A DNA stretch of 20,490 bases from a virus. The DNA is taken from IMG/VR virus record IMGVR_UViG_3300017788_000224, positions 1 to 20,490 of that record; one strand, written 5' to 3'. Shown piece after piece: positions 1 through 15,688 of this stretch. Both the position numbers and the translations under genes were made by a program. The notes below the pieces were generated by a model that was not told where the DNA came from, did no database searches, and saw nothing but the letters and a program-made list of their open reading frames with translations. Position 1 is the first letter of the stretch. The number at the start of each line of letters is the position of its first letter.

Positions 1-346
1 TGATGACCAGATGCTCATCTTCCCATCTCTGATAAGGCAGCATCGCAGTGATTTTTTCCGCGATCTCATCGGGAGAATAGAATGGTGACAAATGCTTGAA
101 TGCTGGGTGCCACGAGGCATAACTGTCGCAGCCCGTAGAAACCAACGGTAGATCTCGGTAGTCTTTATAAAGGTCTATATTGGCTACGATAGGTTCGATT
201 TCTGTGGTGCTTTCACCTTGAGGCATACCGAATGATGCGCACTGAAAATTACAACCAAATGTTCGCATAAACACACTGGGAACACCCATATATCGACCTT
301 CTCCCTGAATTGAGTAAAAAATTTCAGAGATTTTAATTTTTTCCAT
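1..346 (-). CDS. queE: 7-carboxy-7-deazaguanine synthase QueE, N-terminal part (runs off left edge)
   Basis: This radical SAM enzyme turns 6-carboxy-tetrahydropterin into 7-carboxy-7-deazaguanine, the third step of preQ0 synthesis. About 115 residues are visible, starting at ATG 346. The N-terminus has the QueE signature [18 protein letters not shown] and then FGCNFQC. The iron-sulfur cysteines appear to be C32, C36 and C73. The third sits in GCDSYASW, which aligns with the CDSAFTW type of ordinary QueE, so about 34 extra residues lie between the second and third cysteine compared with CxxxCxxC. I recall this form from other phage QueE proteins. The start codon directly follows the stop of a duplicated N-terminus, whose Gln-Gly-Glu-Gly codons supply the purine-rich Shine-Dalgarno (AAGGAGAAGG). 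With folE, queD and the dpdA-like gene of this window it forms a DNA-modification pathway. The C-terminus is not visible. Confidence 0.92.
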
Positions 347-1613: not shown

Positions 1614-2450
1614 TTATCTAGGAGCAAAGTCCTGCTGGAGTTTGATGTTATCAAAAAATTCTTTTTTAGTTCCGGGATCATTTTTAAATGCTCCCATCAA
1701 TACAGTAGTCTGTGTTAAACTGCTATGCGCCATGATACCCCTGTTTTCACAGCATCCGTGTGTGGCCTGTACATATACACCTACATCTTTAGAACCGGTG
1801 GCTTTGGAAATCTCACGAGCGATATCATTAGCCAGTTCTTCTTGTAATGTTCCTCTACGGCTACACCATTGCGCGATGCGAGTATACTTAGAAAGACCGA
1901 TTAATTTTTCTGCAGCCAGAACGCCAATATAAGCAACGCCAGCAACGGGTTGGTGATGATGACTACACATACTACGAATTTCACTACGAACCACGAGCAT
2001 GCCATCATAACGTTCCTCGCCCTCGTTAGGGAACGCTGTACAATCTGGTGCCGGATCATATCTTCCTTTCATTATCTCATTAAAGTACATCTTAGCTAAT
2101 CTACGTGCAGTTCCTTGGCTGTTGGGATCAGTTTCACGATCGATCAGCAGTCTATCTAATACGACTTCAAATGCTTCTGTTGCTTCGTTGATTAGATGTT
2201 CTTTGTCTGTGTCGTGGAGATAATCTGAGATATTATCCCCTGCCCAGAATCTCTTACCATCACGCTTCATTTTAGCACGGATAGCGTCTCCCAAATATGC
2301 TGTTTCGTATCCTTTGTCACTCATATCATCGCCAGCTTTTACAAAGACTTGGGTTTTCAAAGGCACATAATTATCTTTGAATTCTTCTTTTATAAATGTC
2401 TTGTCTGTTTCCAAACTGAGGATAGGATCTGGTATAAATTCTTTCGTCAA
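1614..2450 (-). CDS. folE: GTP cyclohydrolase I
   Basis: FolE converts GTP to 7,8-dihydroneopterin triphosphate, the first step of both folate and 7-deazaguanine synthesis. The 278-aa protein has the zinc and active-site motifs of type IA enzymes: MCSHHHQPVAG (C162, H165), GLSKYTRI, then SRRGTLQEELANDI and ATHGCCENRG (H231, C233). The core starts near residue 85. The first 85 or so residues are an extension compared with the usual 190-220 aa enzyme. The start is TTG at 2450, preceded by GGAG at a 7-nt spacing; no better ATG lies near. A GTG/TTG start may limit its level. In this context, with queD, queE and a dpdA-like gene, it most likely feeds preQ0-type base synthesis rather than folate. 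Confidence 0.95.
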   Translation of the reverse strand: MTKEFIPDPILSLETDKTFIKEEFKDNYVPLKTQVFVKAGDDMSDKGYETAYLGDAIRAKMKRDGKRFWAGDNISDYLHDTDKEHLINEATEAFEVVLDRLLIDRETDPNSQGTARRLAKMYFNEIMKGRYDPAPDCTAFPNEGEERYDGMLVVRSEIRSMCSHHHQPVAGVAYIGVLAAEKLIGLSKYTRIAQWCSRRGTLQEELANDIAREISKATGSKDVGVYVQATHGCCENRGIMAHSSLTQTTVLMGAFKNDPGTKKEFFDNIKLQQDFAPR

Positions 2451-8452: not shown

Positions 8453-8762
8453 GTTTTTTACTTTCTTCGTATTGTTTGAATAAACGAACTACGGGTTCCA
8501 TTCGTTCTTGGAACACATCGGGGGAATCTTGAGCAGCCCTCATCATGTCCCAAGTGCTAGGATAATGTCGTAGGATATTATTTGCTTCTCTTCTGACAGA
8601 TTTTGGAATACGAGGATATTTTTTAGTATCTGTTGCTAATTCTTGCAAAAATTTCGCCGCCCATATCACAGCACGATAACGTTCGTCTGGTAATGTCATT
8701 TCTTTTATCGTTCTTTCATTATCTTCTTTAACATAAGACCAATCTTGATGATCTAAATTCAT
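8442..8762 (-). CDS. BPSL0761-like small helical protein
   Basis: A 106-aa helical protein. The run TLPDERYRAVIWAAKFLQEL followed by PKSVRREANNILRHYPSTWD resembles the small BPSL0761 family of proteobacteria (PDERxRAV, FLxEL, VRREAxxLLRHYP). That family has no known function, and the resemblance is from memory. It follows the dpdA-like gene by ATGA overlap and is followed by an 11-nt overlap. A role next to DpdA is possible but unsupported. Confidence 0.62.
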   Translation of the reverse strand: MNLDHQDWSYVKEDNERTIKEMTLPDERYRAVIWAAKFLQELATDTKKYPRIPKSVRREANNILRHYPSTWDMMRAAQDSPDVFQERMEPVVRLFKQYEESKKHEN

Positions 8763-10306
8763 TTTACTTCTGATTCTAATTCATCTAATTTTTGAGATTC
8801 TTCTTCAGTAAATTCTTCTCCGTGTCCACATTGTACAATCGTTATCTCTTCTTCGTCAAAGAATTTGGCAAAGTTAGTAGTGGCGTTAATAGTTTTTTTG
8901 CCAGTAGCACCCCTAGTGCCAATGATCGTAGTCCAAAATCTACTGTATTCTTCAACAACAGCATCGGCAATGGCTCTATCGCTAGTGGCAAAAATCGCCT
9001 CGACAACATCTTTGAAAAATAATCTATCAAATTTTTCTTGCACGAGCATATTTGGAACTTTGCCTAGATCATATTGACGATTAGCTTCTTGTACTGCGTT
9101 GCAATGCATCCAAACATTGTGTCCCATCATGATAGCGTACGAAAAACTATCCCAAGATGTTTTTCCTATTTTTCCTAACTTGTTTGTATCATTAGCACCA
9201 TAGATACAGATATCTTTAATTTCTACTTGATCAATGATAGGACTAGATTCAAAGTTTTTAAATATACCGTCTTGGATGACAGCATCTTTAAATAATCTAG
9301 CATCTGAAGCATATTTCTTATCGTCTGCTGAAGGCACCATCCGATAGACCCATTTAGTTCTATCTTCAGTTTCGGTCTGTACATAGATCTGCCCGTTAGC
9401 TGTGGCAAGGAAAGGACTGGCGCAGTCAAAGCTAATAGTGAAGTTAGGATTATGATATTTACGTACAGCACGTTGGATATCTGTAAGCAACACTGCCCAC
9501 TCTAGCTTACTAGTTCCGAGGAAGTGCATCCAATCATGTAATCCTTGTTCTAACAATCCATCAAACCTTAATGACACTAATCTCTTGAGCACAAGATGAA
9601 TGTCGCACATGTTTTGACCACCCATGGCCCAACCGTTAAAATGTCGATCTGGATATTGTTTGGGATCGCAGTATTTTTTCATACGCTGATACCAATCATC
9701 GGCATCGGTGTGATTTTCTCCTTGCAGTACGTTTAAAAACTTACAGTTTCCATTCCTATTATTAACGAAGTAATCATTGTTAATATAAGTTCCTTGAACT
9801 GCTTCTGCGTATGAAGTGATACCGGTGGCCTTTTGTCCCGCCGGACTACGAGCTACCCATGCCGGGATATCTAGAATCATGCCATAGTCCATAAGAGAAT
9901 CCATCCAGGTTAAAACTTGTTGCCGTTTCTTAGCAGCTTTAGGACAGTTGGGATCCTTCCAATCAGCCTCCCACACCCCCTTTCCAATTTGGAATCCTCC
10001 AGAATCGCCTAATACCCAACTGGTGCTATGGTTGCGATTACGAAACATATCTTCAGTTTCGTCTTGCTTGTTTAAGTCTAAATTTGCGTGTCCTGCGGAA
10101 TACAAACACCAATTGTAGTAAAATAACCCTTTATCAGGTTCTAAATAATTGAGACTCTCAACACCGTTGATAAATGATTTTGGAATTCTAGCAGGATCTA
10201 CATAATTTCCGTATCTTTGTTTGCCTATAAATGTAGCATAGAAACCAGACGTAGCGGGTAAAAACACTGCGTAGTCATTTTGGGTAGCTGTTAAATTACG
10301 ATTCAT
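8759..10306 (-). CDS. dpdA: DpdA-like DNA guanine transglycosylase (TGT superfamily)
   Basis: DpdA proteins are relatives of tRNA-guanine transglycosylase that exchange guanine in phage or plasmid DNA for a 7-deazaguanine. This 515-aa protein keeps the TGT landmarks in order: GDSGGFQIGKG (D101, the general-base position), FLNVLQGENHTDADDW (the VQGG region), GWAMGGQNM (GYAIGG), HFLGTSKLEW and TISFDCASPF. D294 in the last motif matches the nucleophilic Asp of the FDC-x-PTR motif. The CxCx2C zinc site of tRNA enzymes is not seen. About 200 residues follow the barrel and are rich in charged residues at the end (GEEFTEEESQKLDELESEVK). Its ATG shares one base with the clamp stop codon (TAATG), so it is coupled to replication genes. 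Which deazaguanine it inserts is unknown. Confidence 0.88.
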   Translation of the reverse strand: MNRNLTATQNDYAVFLPATSGFYATFIGKQRYGNYVDPARIPKSFINGVESLNYLEPDKGLFYYNWCLYSAGHANLDLNKQDETEDMFRNRNHSTSWVLGDSGGFQIGKGVWEADWKDPNCPKAAKKRQQVLTWMDSLMDYGMILDIPAWVARSPAGQKATGITSYAEAVQGTYINNDYFVNNRNGNCKFLNVLQGENHTDADDWYQRMKKYCDPKQYPDRHFNGWAMGGQNMCDIHLVLKRLVSLRFDGLLEQGLHDWMHFLGTSKLEWAVLLTDIQRAVRKYHNPNFTISFDCASPFLATANGQIYVQTETEDRTKWVYRMVPSADDKKYASDARLFKDAVIQDGIFKNFESSPIIDQVEIKDICIYGANDTNKLGKIGKTSWDSFSYAIMMGHNVWMHCNAVQEANRQYDLGKVPNMLVQEKFDRLFFKDVVEAIFATSDRAIADAVVEEYSRFWTTIIGTRGATGKKTINATTNFAKFFDEEEITIVQCGHGEEFTEEESQKLDELESEVK

Positions 10307-11063: not shown

Positions 11064-11092
11064 ATTATATTTAGGTTTTTGTTAAAAGTCAA
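11064..11092 (-). promoter_or_regulatory. sigma-70 type promoter for the sliding clamp gene
   Basis: On the minus strand TTGACT (11092-11087) is followed after exactly 17 nt by TATAAT (11069-11064), a 5/6 plus 6/6 match to the consensus. The -35 hexamer lies in the last codons of the polymerase gene. The start of transcription should fall near 11057, about 20 nt before the clamp ATG. The box CTAAATA, like T4-type late promoters, overlaps the spacer and -10 (11068-11074), so the site could serve early and late transcription. Confidence 0.75.
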
Positions 11093-13745
11093 ATAATTTA
11101 TTGAAAGTATTGTTCTGTTCGGTTGATTTGATATCCCAATTCAATACTCCAATTAAATTCTCTAACTTATTATCGATGATCGTCGACTCCATTTCGTCGT
11201 GATCAAACGGTAAATCTTTAAACCACTGAGGTAATCTCAGTTCATCTACAGGATATGCCACTGACGTGAATCCCATAGGATTATCTTTGATTTTGCAGAC
11301 TATAACTTTTTGTCCATCTGTGATCTGCATTGAATATTTGTCATTATACATTCGTTTTAAAGTATTCCAGTTAATGCTGGCTCGGACGTGACCAGGCATA
11401 TTTGCCTTGCCCTGTTTCTGTTCCTTGGATTGGTATTCTGTAATGTTGTTGGCACGTTTTGGAGATCCCTTCTCCCAGCCAGGCCTAGCTTTAAACTCTG
11501 TTCGAAAATTTGCTATATGATCAAGAACTGCTTCCTCGTTAGCCCCTGTTAACACTTTTTCTAAAACATCGCTTAAAAAGTTTTGTATGAATTCAGGAGT
11601 ATCTGATCTTTTAAGGTCTAGACCCATAGCTTTGATCTTTCCTGGTTTGCCTTCTACGTCTTGACGTTTGCCTTCTTTGTCATAGTAAAGAACAGCATAT
11701 CGTTTTTTAGTAATAAACAATCCTTTGCTACCGACGATTTCTCGACCTGCTTTAATCACTTCTCCTCTTGTTTTTGGACAATGGAATGCATCTAACATAA
11801 AATCAGGAAATGTAGAATTAACTTCGGATCCGATTTGATCATATAACTGAATCACTGTTTCTTTAGACCAAGGTATATGACCAGCATCGATTTCTTTCTT
11901 TAAAGTTTTATATGCCGAAAAATAACAACTGTCAGTATCACCGTAAATGATAGCTTTTCCTACGTGATTATATTCTCCTGTGATTATTTCATTGACTTTA
12001 CCAGCCATATGTCTAGCGATAGCACGACCAGTAAGTGTGGTACTCTGTCCGATGCGTTTATCAAAGAAACGACATCCTGGATTAAGAATAGCTCCATAGA
12101 GGCTATTTAGATTAATCTTTTTAACCAACTGTCTTTTATCCCAGTATTCTTCTTCAATTTTGTTGCCTGCCTGGATACATTCTTTGAGTTTGGTCTGCAT
12201 TTCCTTACGTTCGCTGTACCAACGTTTTAGCAAGCCAGGAATAATACCTTCTTTTTCGTAGGTAAAGATAGTTCCGTTGGCGCTGAGCATAAGACTTTGG
12301 TGGCTTTCGAAGATAAGTCTATAAACTTCGGCAGCACTGAGTATATCATTACGACCGTCTTCCCAATCGATGGTTATTTCCACACCGATACGTCGTTCCA
12401 TGACTGCTTCATACTCTAAAGAACCAAATCTTCCTTCCCATGCGGCAGCAAAGCTTTTGCCTTTGTAGATGAGATCATCGATATAATCCTTGGTCATATT
12501 TTGTCTTAGCTGACCGACAATGGTTTCTGGCCCCATATTTAGAGCTCGAATCGCTGAAGGATATAGACTGTTGATGTCTAGAGAACCTACCCAATCTTGT
12601 ATTCCTTCTTTGGGATAAGCAACATAAGCACCTGCGGCCTGCGTGTCACTGCCGTCATCATGCTTAGGTCGATTAGGTACTTGGAATCCTCTTCGATGTG
12701 CTTCATTGATGATGGCCTGCTCGGTAACAGCCACAGCGCCCATGGTTGTTTGTAGCAGTACTGTATTTTCATGTGCTAGTTTGTTGGATAGATCGAGGAA
12801 TTTTAGTTTTTTATCTAATTTATCTAACAGTGCGCAGTCTTGTCTGTTATATTCGATGAACTTACGGAAGTCGTTGTTATACAATTGATCTAACGTGCCT
12901 TCATAGACGGTCTTGCTTTCACCTATTTCCATTTCTCCGATGGCATCTAATCGATACGTATGCCGCTCTTCATAGGTATATTTCCTGTAAAGTTCGAGGC
13001 TATCTAAATGGACCCTTCCGATCAAATCATAGGTAGTGGCGGTTTTACCGTATTTCTCATATTCTCGTTTTCTCGGATAATGATCCCATAGACAAAATCT
13101 CCGGGTGTCATCTTTGCTCAAGACTTTGGTTACACGATTGACAGTATACGGAATATCAAAACCTTCCGAGTTCCAGCCGCTAAGGACATCAGCATCTTCT
13201 ATAAGGTTAAGGAAGGTATCCAGCATATCTGCTTCATTATCAAAGATATGTGTGTTAGAAAAATCTTGCACTAGTTCTCGAGCTTTGTCGACAGACATAC
13301 CTTTTGGAGGAACCGCTAAACACACTAGAGTTTCTAACCATTGTAGATGTACAGCGATCGCTGTGATCGGCATAAAAGCATCGTCAGGAGAAGCGTAGCC
13401 TCTTTCTGGATCAAACGCTACTTCAATATCGAAAAACGCTACATTTAATTTTGGAGATTCGGCGTTGAGATAATTCTCGCTCAAACATACGAATATAGGA
13501 TTGATGTCAGCTTCGTATAATTTCTTGTTTGAATTGATCGCGAGTTCTTTACGAAAGTCTTTGCTGTTTTTGCAAACGACTCGATTCAGGGGTTCTCCAT
13601 ATATGCTTTGGAATTTACCACGAGGATCTTCGTAATAAAAGGTATAGCGTATCGGAAATTCTTTGTATACTCTTTTACCATCTTTACTTCTTTCAACGAC
13701 TTTGATGATATCAGCATCACGCTGAAAATAAGCGTCTACATACAT
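11082..13745 (-). CDS. 43: family B DNA polymerase, T4 gp43-like
   Basis: The replicative polymerase with 3'-5' exonuclease; 887 aa against 898 in T4. The exonuclease motifs are FFDIEVAF (D106, E108), SGWNSEGFDIPY (D197) and EYNRQDCALLDKL (D303). The polymerase motifs are SLDINSLYPSAI (motif A, D390), VKKINLNSLYGA (motif B, Y550) and YGDTDSCYF (motif C, D603 and D605), followed by KKRYAVLYYDK. No intein or intron interrupts it. The start, ATG 13745, has AGGAG at 8 nt. A hairpin touches that AGGAG, as in the T4 gp43 translational operator. The last residues NTFNKLFDF may be the clamp-binding tail, which in T4 is also C-terminal. Confidence 0.97.
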   Translation of the reverse strand: MYVDAYFQRDADIIKVVERSKDGKRVYKEFPIRYTFYYEDPRGKFQSIYGEPLNRVVCKNSKDFRKELAINSNKKLYEADINPIFVCLSENYLNAESPKLNVAFFDIEVAFDPERGYASPDDAFMPITAIAVHLQWLETLVCLAVPPKGMSVDKARELVQDFSNTHIFDNEADMLDTFLNLIEDADVLSGWNSEGFDIPYTVNRVTKVLSKDDTRRFCLWDHYPRKREYEKYGKTATTYDLIGRVHLDSLELYRKYTYEERHTYRLDAIGEMEIGESKTVYEGTLDQLYNNDFRKFIEYNRQDCALLDKLDKKLKFLDLSNKLAHENTVLLQTTMGAVAVTEQAIINEAHRRGFQVPNRPKHDDGSDTQAAGAYVAYPKEGIQDWVGSLDINSLYPSAIRALNMGPETIVGQLRQNMTKDYIDDLIYKGKSFAAAWEGRFGSLEYEAVMERRIGVEITIDWEDGRNDILSAAEVYRLIFESHQSLMLSANGTIFTYEKEGIIPGLLKRWYSERKEMQTKLKECIQAGNKIEEEYWDKRQLVKKINLNSLYGAILNPGCRFFDKRIGQSTTLTGRAIARHMAGKVNEIITGEYNHVGKAIIYGDTDSCYFSAYKTLKKEIDAGHIPWSKETVIQLYDQIGSEVNSTFPDFMLDAFHCPKTRGEVIKAGREIVGSKGLFITKKRYAVLYYDKEGKRQDVEGKPGKIKAMGLDLKRSDTPEFIQNFLSDVLEKVLTGANEEAVLDHIANFRTEFKARPGWEKGSPKRANNITEYQSKEQKQGKANMPGHVRASINWNTLKRMYNDKYSMQITDGQKVIVCKIKDNPMGFTSVAYPVDELRLPQWFKDLPFDHDEMESTIIDNKLENLIGVLNWDIKSTEQNNTFNKLFDF

Positions 13746-13758
13746 TTAATTTTCTCCT

Positions 13759-13778
13759 TTGCGATTTCCGGCTCGCAA
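13759..13778 (-). promoter_or_regulatory. hairpin abutting the polymerase ribosome-binding site (putative gp43 operator)
   Basis: In the mRNA sense the arms TTGCGA and TCGCAA form a perfect 6-bp stem around the 8-nt loop GCCGGAAA. The right arm is directly followed by the Shine-Dalgarno AGGAG of the polymerase gene. In T4 and RB69, gp43 represses its own translation by binding a hairpin with an 8-nt loop at this place; the loop sequence differs there. The layout supports, but does not prove, self-regulation here. Confidence 0.6.
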
Positions 13779-13789
13779 GCACCAAACAT

Positions 13790-13805
13790 GCGGTTTATGG
13801 CCCGC
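13790..13805 (-). promoter_or_regulatory. second hairpin in the polymerase leader with a related loop
   Basis: In the mRNA sense GCGG and CCGC form a 4-bp stem around the 8-nt loop GCCATAAA. The loop differs from that of the hairpin at 13759-13778 at two positions only (GCCxxAAA in both). The two hairpins stand 11 nt apart in the 75-nt leader between the membrane-protein gene and the polymerase. It could be a second protein-binding site. Confidence 0.4.
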
Positions 13806-13820
13806 CTACCTTAATCTATA

Positions 13821-14114
13821 TTAGTTAATTAGCATTCTAATCAAACCTACACTATCAATCGTGACTAACAAGAGATAGTTAGCCAGCATGCCAAAAGATT
13901 TCCTAGTATAAGCAGCCCAACTATACATAGCACAGCCAAGAATCCAAATAGGATAAAGAATGAGTAATGGCGGAGTAGGGACCGTAAGGGCCATCGTGAT
14001 GCTACAGCCGATACTAATAGCCCAAGCAATAAGCTCGATAGCAAAACGAAAAGGATGAGATCTCCAATCATCTTTGATCCATTTTATAGTCGGGCGGAAT
14101 ATGTCATTAATCAT
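13821..14114 (-). CDS. small membrane protein of unknown function
   Basis: A 97-aa protein with about three membrane spans: residues 24-46 (FAIELIAWAISIGCSITMAL), 49-70 (LLILYPIWILGCAMYSWAAY) and 76-96 (MLANYLLLVTIDSVGLIRML). The N-terminal 22 residues are charged (WIKDDWRSHPFR) and likely cytoplasmic. Its ATG directly follows the TAA of the dsbA-like gene. I do not know its role. As an early gene beside the polymerase it could tie replication to the membrane or alter the host envelope. Confidence 0.72.
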   Translation of the reverse strand: MINDIFRPTIKWIKDDWRSHPFRFAIELIAWAISIGCSITMALTVPTPPLLILYPIWILGCAMYSWAAYTRKSFGMLANYLLLVTIDSVGLIRMLIN

Positions 14115-14381
14115 TTATTCCTTGGGAAGTCTGTTGGTAACACCGAGGATCATTTCAATTTCGTTCCAATCATTTTCATGATCTTTCCAATTGTCCTTAT
14201 GGGCAATGGTAATAGCCTTATTGATGATGCTGGGTTTGATCTCCAATTCTTCTGCCACAGCTTTAACCGTTTCTTTGAGACCTTCTTTGAGATCTTCGAT
14301 TTCACGCAAAACGGTACTTCCTTCGGTGATAAGACGCTCTAATTTGGCTTTTTCTTCTGGTCCATACATACGTGTACTCAT
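14115..14381 (-). CDS. dsbA: DsbA-like double-stranded DNA-binding protein (late transcription)
   Basis: T4 DsbA is an 89-aa dsDNA-binding protein that modulates late promoters. From ATG 14381 this protein has 88 residues, with AAAGGA ending 6 nt before the start. The longer frames from 14387 or 14417 lack a usable Shine-Dalgarno. The C-terminal part, KAVAEELEIKPSIINKAITIAHKDN, matches the T4 pattern IRAKDELGVDGKMFNRLLALYHKDN in spacing and character, and is preceded by a coiled helix. Its start codon overlaps the -35 box of the opposing plus-strand promoter, so the two units may interfere with each other. Confidence 0.75.
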   Translation of the reverse strand: MSTRMYGPEEKAKLERLITEGSTVLREIEDLKEGLKETVKAVAEELEIKPSIINKAITIAHKDNWKDHENDWNEIEMILGVTNRLPKE

Positions 14382-14409
14382 TGACATTCCTTTAAAATGA
14401 TCGTATAAT
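14381..14409 (+). promoter_or_regulatory. perfect consensus sigma-70 promoter, plus strand
   Basis: TTGACA (14381-14386), a 17-nt spacer, and TATAAT (14404-14409) match the bacterial consensus in all 12 positions. Transcription should start near 14416, about 26 nt before the plus-strand CDS. The -35 box lies over the start codon of the minus-strand dsbA-like gene. Such a promoter should be read by host RNA polymerase at once on infection. Confidence 0.88.
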
Positions 14410-14441: not shown

Positions 14442-14762
14442 ATGAAAAAAATTCTTTGTTTGTTATTAGCATTTTCTGTTTCTAATGCGCATGCATATCT
14501 GGGCACATGGAATGACCCTTTAAAATCCTTTGATGCCACAAAAAATCAATACAGTAAAGTAAACATCGAATGGGTGGTATCCGAAGATGTTGTTAAAGAT
14601 TGTAATAAAGAAAATAACAAATGGGGGTTCGCTCCTTTGGGTCCTCTGACAGCCTGCGCATTTTGGCGGGGTAATACTTGCAAAATAATTACCAGTCGAA
14701 CTCCAACCATGCACGAAATTGGACATGAAGTACGACATTGTTTCCAAGGAGCCTGGCATTAA
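14442..14762 (+). CDS. secreted protein with HExxH zincin-like motif, moron-like
   Basis: The only plus-strand gene. The 106-aa product starts with a Sec signal peptide, MKKILCLLLAFSVSNAHA, with a likely cut after Ala18. Near the C-terminus is HEIGHEVRHCFQGAWH: an HExxH zinc motif with two more His nearby. Four Cys in the mature part could form disulfides in the periplasm. From memory, phage proteins ending in HEVRHCFDG-x-WH are fairly common and uncharacterised. A mature protein of 88 residues is very small for a metalloprotease, so it may bind metal without proteolysis. It has its own promoter and terminator, which fits a gene expressed apart from the rest, perhaps changing the host envelope. 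Confidence 0.82.
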   Translation: MKKILCLLLAFSVSNAHAYLGTWNDPLKSFDATKNQYSKVNIEWVVSEDVVKDCNKENNKWGFAPLGPLTACAFWRGNTCKIITSRTPTMHEIGHEVRHCFQGAWH

Positions 14763-14786
14763 AAAACCGCCCATTGGGCGGTTTTT
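14762..14786. terminator. bidirectional rho-independent terminator
   Basis: The arms AAAAACCGCCC (14762-14772) and GGGCGGTTTTT (14776-14786) form a perfect 11-bp stem with the 3-nt loop ATT. The GC core has T-runs on both strands. It lies between the convergent ends of the plus-strand gene (stop at 14760-14762) and the minus-strand 299-aa gene (stop at 14789-14791), and can stop both. Confidence 0.93.
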
Positions 14787-14788
14787 AT

Positions 14789-15688
14789 TTATGGAGCAGC
14801 GTTTACGGCCCCAGGTCGAAGTTTTTGGTATCTAAGAATTAGGGCATCTAATTCGGGTAGTCTTCCCATGTGAGGATCGAATTCTTGGGCCAATACTCCC
14901 ATTTCACCTTCCTCTTCGGGAGTTAATGCAGCAGCTGGTGGATTAGCCGAACTAGCAGCAGGCGGTTTAGGTGCTGCTGGTTTAGGTGCTGCCGGTTTAG
15001 GTGCTGCCGGTGCTGCTGGTGCTGCCGGTGCTGCTGGTGCTGCTGGTTTAGGTGCTGCTGGTTTAGGATCAGGAACTGACAGGTATCCAGCAGTGCCAGC
15101 AGCCGCAGCTCCAAGTGCACCTGTAGCAACTTTTTGTCCAGTAGTCATTCCGGGTTTAATTTCTTTAGCGTCGACATCGATTACATTGGGGTCTTTTTTT
15201 GGAACAGCTCCTGCAGGTTTTGCCACAGCAGGGGGTTTCGCTCCTTTGAACAGTGTCGTCAATGGGCCTTCATCTATTTGATCTAATTTATTTCTTAGTT
15301 GTGCGATTCTTTCAGATTCTCTCATTTTATTCTCCGTTTGACCCTCTTTAGCGAATTTGTCTTTTATTGCTTGTCCGAGTTCGTCGTAGTCACCTTTTTT
15401 AATATCTCTTCCAATGTTAACAGCATCTAGTGCTGATCCTGCCGCTGTCCCTAATCCGGGAGCAAGAAACGCAGCACCTGCAAGTGCAGCTATCACTGCA
15501 CCACTTCTGTCTCCTTGCTTCCAGCGATCCCAGGCATCAGTCCAACTTAATGCTGTGCCGACTCCTGGAATTAATTTTGAACCCATTTTTTTAGCTATTG
15601 TTCCGGCGGCAGCCGCCTGGGCACTAGATTTGGCAACACCAACGGCATTTTCATCGATGAGTTGCAGGACTTTTTTTATATCATTCAT
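14789..15688 (-). CDS. Ala/Pro-rich protein with glycine-zipper segment, putative virion protein
   Basis: A 299-aa protein. The start MNDIKKVLQLIDEN resembles the leaders of its neighbours and contains I-x-E. Residues 25-95 hold small-residue hydrophobic stretches (IPGVGTALSW, GAVIAALAGAAFLAPGLGTAAG) that could enter or cross a membrane. Around residue 185 is another Ala/Gly run. Residues 207-243 are a PKPAAP/AAP repeat, then SSANPPAA, then an acidic tail. The SSANPP and PKPAAP elements also occur in the next gene upstream. It begins one base after the LysM gene's stop (TAAAATG). Such architecture fits an internal head protein or a protein ejected with DNA; this is inferred. Confidence 0.72.
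   Translation of the reverse strand: MNDIKKVLQLIDENAVGVAKSSAQAAAAGTIAKKMGSKLIPGVGTALSWTDAWDRWKQGDRSGAVIAALAGAAFLAPGLGTAAGSALDAVNIGRDIKKGDYDELGQAIKDKFAKEGQTENKMRESERIAQLRNKLDQIDEGPLTTLFKGAKPPAVAKPAGAVPKKDPNVIDVDAKEIKPGMTTGQKVATGALGAAAAGTAGYLSVPDPKPAAPKPAAPAAPAAPAAPAAPKPAAPKPAAPKPPAASSANPPAAALTPEEEGEMGVLAQEFDPHMGRLPELDALILRYQKLRPGAVNAAP
14960..15070 (-). repeat. PKPAAP/AAP low-complexity coding repeat
   Basis: Short imperfect 9- to 18-nt repeats built on GGTGCTGCTGGT (plus-strand reading) encode a Pro/Ala/Lys linker of about 37 residues in the 299-aa protein. Closely similar sequence occurs in the LysM gene at 15900-15992, so recombination between the two genes is possible. Confidence 0.85.

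Follow-up and report, generated by a model that had tools for sequence, protein, structure and literature searches.

Tandem mini-pseudoknots in the leader of a phage DNA polymerase gene, a candidate translational self-operator

The polymerase leader and its two hairpins

The window, the whole 20,490-nt stretch of viral DNA analyzed here, encodes on its minus strand an 887-aa family B DNA polymerase of the T4 gp43 type (11082..13745, ATG at 13745-13743). Domain and family matches support this assignment (Pfam DNA_pol_B and DNA_pol_B_exo1, PHROG 262), and most of the best solved relatives of the protein are structures of RB69 gp43, for example 1clq and 1ig9. Upstream, an ORF of 97 aa (13821..14114, minus strand) has its stop codon just 5' of a 75-nt intergenic leader, which extends on the minus strand to the polymerase start, according to direct reading and the ORF list.

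Direct reading of the leader confirms two hairpins with 8-nt loops (GCCNNAAA), 11 nt apart, the second touching AGGAG, in accordance with an earlier sequence-only reading. Both lie on the minus strand. In element 1, GCGG pairs with CCGC around the loop GCCATAAA (13790..13805), so that the element reads, 5' to 3', GGT (13810-13808), AG, GCGG, GCCATAAA and CCGC (13793-13790). In element 2, UUGCGA pairs with UCGCAA around GCCGGAAA (13759..13778), the DNA strands of the stem being TTGCGA (13778-13773) and TCGCAA (13764-13759), and the Shine-Dalgarno sequence AGGAG (13754..13758) directly adjoins this stem. Each loop opens with GCC (13801-13799 in element 1, 13772-13770 in element 2; strand S1-3'), followed by AUAAA in element 1 and GGAAA in element 2 (L3). 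Ahead of each hairpin stands a GGU (S1-5'; 13808..13810 and 13781..13783, respectively), which in element 1 represents a conserved RGY facing the loop RCY.

Conservation and covariation of the stems

The loci compared are environmental contigs whose relatedness lowers the number of independent events and whose polymerase starts were placed by homology; the tandem recurs in 138 of the 148 with related polymerases, in agreement with the sequence-only reading, which had the hairpins repeated before a gene 43 homologue. At least one copy lies directly before the gene in 144 of the 148, and in three of the other four (L099, L111, L126) the motif precedes a short ORF that runs up to the polymerase start. 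In a set of 80 related loci, recognizable elements occupy the same position. The two loops are 27-30 nt apart in relatives and share the consensus GCCNNAAN; element 2 varies at the two N positions, where element 1 mostly has AU. Of 117 leaders, 112 have the Shine-Dalgarno sequence starting 0-3 nt beyond the 5-bp stem.

Compensatory changes in relatives, the check that the sequence-only reading had named, are numerous in both stems. All 4 stem pairs of element 1 show double compensatory changes (alignment A4), as do all 6 pairs of element 2 (alignment A3), and the stem covariation score reaches 0.761, compared with 0.268 for shuffled and at most 0.110 for slid alignments. RNAalifold recovers both hairpins unprompted from the alignment of relatives. 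Although the folding energy of a single copy in the window is unremarkable (z about -1 per hairpin), chance is ruled out, because the hairpins are conserved and covary; the two are real conserved RNA elements. Cross-pairing between elements 1 and 2, favored by single-sequence folding of some longer stretches, was considered and rejected, as the alignment fold disagrees with it.

Pairing of each loop with an upstream triplet

The main feature of the leader, overlooked in the sequence-only reading, is the pairing of GGU with GCC that makes each hairpin a pseudoknot. The conserved GGU lies 5-8 nt upstream of each loop and is complementary to the loop GCC. Upstream and loop triplets covary as classes: GGY goes with GCC and AGY with GCU, while phages further removed combine GUC with GAC or AGU with ACU. 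GCU loops are accompanied by AGU or AGC, and the ACC loop of L124 by GGU. A complementary upstream triplet was found for 216/224 GCC, 39/40 GCU, 11/15 GAC and 7/12 ACU loops, compared with 1/25 and 0/16 for the unrelated loops ACA and AAG. In element 2, S1 is paired in 78 of 78 distinct sequences (outer pair GC in 71, AU in 7), and scoring of 275 loci, 77 of them of the A/U type, revealed no discordant case.

A simple Fisher value for this covariation ignores ancestry and is not usable as a probability. The pairing is instead supported by the absence of discordance over about five independent switches, a small number (three in element 2, placed on the polymerase tree, and two in element 1), together with the further triplet classes. 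On the evidence of covariation, S1 is paired in both elements. Because GGU pairs and covaries with loop GCC, outside the hairpin itself, each element is a mini H-type pseudoknot. Its plan is R-G-Y, an L1 of about 2-3 nt, an S2 of 4-6 bp, a gapless R-C-Y, an L3 of N-N-A-A-N that is mostly A, and the 3' strand of S2. Arranged in this way (S1, short L1, S2, no gap, S1', L3, S2'), the parts would have the classical H-type geometry. Conserved unpaired bases are few, essentially the AA of L3.

The pairing changes how the recurring GCC is to be understood. It had been taken as part of a shared GCCxxAAA loop denoting a new loop specificity; since it pairs with the upstream GGU, it is structural rather than simply a new specificity, and it becomes GCU or GAC when its partner changes.

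In the leaders of group 2 (L189-L323), the first element lies about 50-80 nt before the polymerase and carries GUC/GAC, AGU/ACU or GAG/CUC. Some of these first elements are plain hairpins, for example CGCCC-AUAU-AGGGC, which suggests that the upstream copy of group 2 is decaying or built differently.

Confinement to the polymerase operon

Two covariance models, one built from the tandem (R1) and one from element 2 alone (R2), when run on 16 records of 41-278 kb, return one strong site per record, always in the polymerase leader. Matches outside the leader were rejected as further sites: they are weak, and the best of them (G006:372-424) reads as coding sequence of L102. In a scan of viral contigs by DNA pattern alone, with no protein information, 75 of the 75 newly fetched motif-only sites among the matches listed head a polymerase operon; the polymerase follows immediately in 72 of these, and in the other 3 a Cys-rich ORF of about 60 aa comes in between. 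Among 84,980 bacterial and archaeal genomes, one per species, the pattern matched 10 times, in no case with a 4-bp stem or a downstream polymerase, and these are chance matches. Taken together, the genome and contig scans indicate that the tandem belongs to the polymerase operon.

No terminator was found at the leader. Promoter boxes resembling TATAAT or TATAAATA occur at fixed positions in only a minority of leaders and are therefore not part of the element.

Several lineages carry short Cys-rich ORFs (about 50-63 aa) between the operator and the polymerase, each ending at the polymerase start (L099:2825-2998, L126:2825-2998, L195:2831-3004, L196:2852-3004; also downstream of the motif in L422, L423 and L435). 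Their products are possible zinc binders.

Comparison with known leader elements

Control of an mRNA by the replication enzyme that it encodes has a textbook example in the gp43 operator, also the target of the first RNA SELEX; to our knowledge, such operators have been described from only a few coliphages. In T4 and RB69, gp43 represses translation of its own mRNA by way of a hairpin close to the ribosome binding site (PMC3014915). The leader described here shares with that system a gp43 homologue downstream, a paired element near or touching the ribosome binding site, and presumed autogenous control. The T4/RB69 operator, however, is one hairpin with the UAAC-core loop AAUAACUC, in which nothing points to a pseudoknot, whereas here there are two mini-pseudoknots, with GCCNNAAN loops whose RCY is paired upstream. 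The likeness to T4 and RB69 that the sequence-only reading had drawn thus stands for position, and so does its remark that the loop letters differ; the resemblance of the 8-nt loops is superficial, because their first three bases pair with the upstream GGU. The element may work as the T4-type operators do; it cannot yet be counted among them, and one of their defining features, the loop sequence, is missing. For RB49, the gene 43 leader is reported to carry a -UAAA- loop (PMC3014915), and its sequence contains neither a GCCNNAAA hairpin nor a tandem.

The gene 32 leader of T4 and RB69 offers a second parallel: there too a replication gene is preceded by a pseudoknot, about 28 nt long, which serves autogenous repression by gp32 (PMC535899). 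It differs in preceding another gene, that of the single-strand binding protein, and in being followed by an unstructured stretch of more than 40 nt with UUAAA repeats; the present element is a tandem before the polymerase gene and directly adjoins the Shine-Dalgarno sequence.

In overall shape, a third parallel is the preQ1-I translational riboswitch, likewise a very small H-type pseudoknot with an A-rich third loop near the Shine-Dalgarno sequence. The present elements differ from it in sequence, in their 3-bp S1, in their tandem arrangement and in the polymerase downstream, and they return no covariance-model match to it. Searches of Rfam with the window, the leader and eight relatives assigned the element to no family (best match at the leader freshwater-2, 16.6 bits against a gathering threshold of 49.9, E 1.3). 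No DNA similarity to cultured phages was found in the phage collection, nor any paper describing the element in the open-licence literature searched.

Proposed function and alternatives

We give an even chance to the reading that the tandem knots act as the polymerase operon's translational operator, through which surplus polymerase binds and blocks its own mRNA. Judging by position, specificity and analogy, the likeliest function is that the polymerase represses its own translation; we infer both the repression of translation and the identity of the binder. Surplus polymerase, free of DNA, would bind the leader pseudoknots, recognizing their shape and A-rich L3 rather than the letters of S1, and the bound protein would stop ribosomes from loading; the upstream copy may add affinity or host a second bound molecule. 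Element 2 ends 0-3 nt before the Shine-Dalgarno sequence in nearly all leaders, which places a bound or stable knot within the ribosome footprint. Autogenous repression is favored because the T4 and RB69 polymerases repress their mRNA from the same place.

The arrangement is not general to this polymerase type, since the motif is missing in the closest cultured polymerase relatives (Phosso, Atu_ph07, the 121Q type and GAP32, about 42-51% polymerase identity) and in many group 2 members. Some T4-related gp43 proteins lack autoregulation (review, PMC3014915).

It is unlikely that the knots are bound by some other phage or host protein controlling polymerase translation. Candidates would be the single-strand binding protein, the clamp, a DsbA-like protein, the small Cys-rich ORF product or a ribosomal protein: gp32 of T4 recognizes a pseudoknot in the leader of its own message (PMC535899), two genes upstream is a DsbA-like ORF, and in several lineages small Cys-rich ORFs separate the operator from the polymerase. 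A global regulator, however, should have more sites, and none was found outside the polymerase operon.

That the knots act without a ligand, tuning ribosome access or shielding the 5' end of the mRNA, is improbable. Conserved positions are mostly those that the fold needs, as such an element would require, but two copies at near-constant spacing in one operon, across hundreds of phages, suggest a specific partner.

Slightly more improbable still is a riboswitch, in which each mini-pseudoknot would bind a small molecule (a 7-deazaguanine precursor or a nucleotide) and hide the Shine-Dalgarno sequence in the manner of preQ1. The H-type fold with its A-rich L3 next to that sequence would suit this, as would the QueE-like and FolE genes of the window and a TGT/DpdA-like gene that accompanies the operon, downstream of the polymerase, in 16 of the 16 group 1 records searched. 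Rfam, preQ1 families included, nevertheless gives no match, the window's queE and folE genes are not preceded by the motif, and few of the unpaired bases are conserved. Records G025 and G027, in which no tandem was detected, carry the DpdA-like gene as well; present with and without the tandem, the gene is too widespread to discriminate. Finally, plain hairpins with a sequence-specific GCCNNAAA loop, their GGU kept for another reason, are very improbable: GCC and GGU are indeed the commonest forms, but loop and upstream triplet change together in several classes, without discordance in 275 loci.

Self-repression by the polymerase thus remains the preferred function, and the element before the gene is most likely a switch limiting the amount of polymerase, built unlike that of T4. 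Only tentatively can a new RNA class be proposed: tandem mini H-type pseudoknots of about 25 nt, forming a polymerase self-operator recognized by shape, with the pairing letters free to drift. If true, this polymerase lineage would have an operator built quite unlike the T4-type hairpin. As far as the sequences indicate, this is a new RNA element and would be a variant of a known control, the polymerase being a candidate ligand. At the place of the T4-type operator, hundreds of environmental phage contigs carry this element of different structure, which has apparently not been described before, and its natural sequence variation makes RNA-protein co-evolution directly testable. The element also provides a natural pseudoknot of very small size that can serve as a model for binding or structure.

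Neighboring genes and further observations

The window also encodes FolE (1614-2450, minus strand), a QueE-like protein (2-346, minus strand) and a DpdA-like protein of 515 aa (8759-10306, minus strand). The last has no Pfam, NCBIfam or PHROG match and contains a DSGGFQ motif, which is typical of tRNA-guanine transglycosylases. The combination suggests a putative 7-deazaguanine DNA modification pathway.

Antisense to the replication operon lies a secreted-looking ORF of 106 aa (14442-14762), preceded by a perfect TTGACA-17-TATAAT promoter-like site (14381-14409, plus strand). In a relative, L259:73-181 (minus strand) matches the Rhizobiales sRNA Atu_At1 in Rfam (43 bits against a gathering threshold of 60, E 0.0005). 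At about 14758-14791 of the window, a strong hairpin (ACCGCCCAAUGGGCGGU) is flanked by T/A runs on both strands; it accounts for the weak Rfam matches of the window and is likely a bidirectional terminator between convergent genes.
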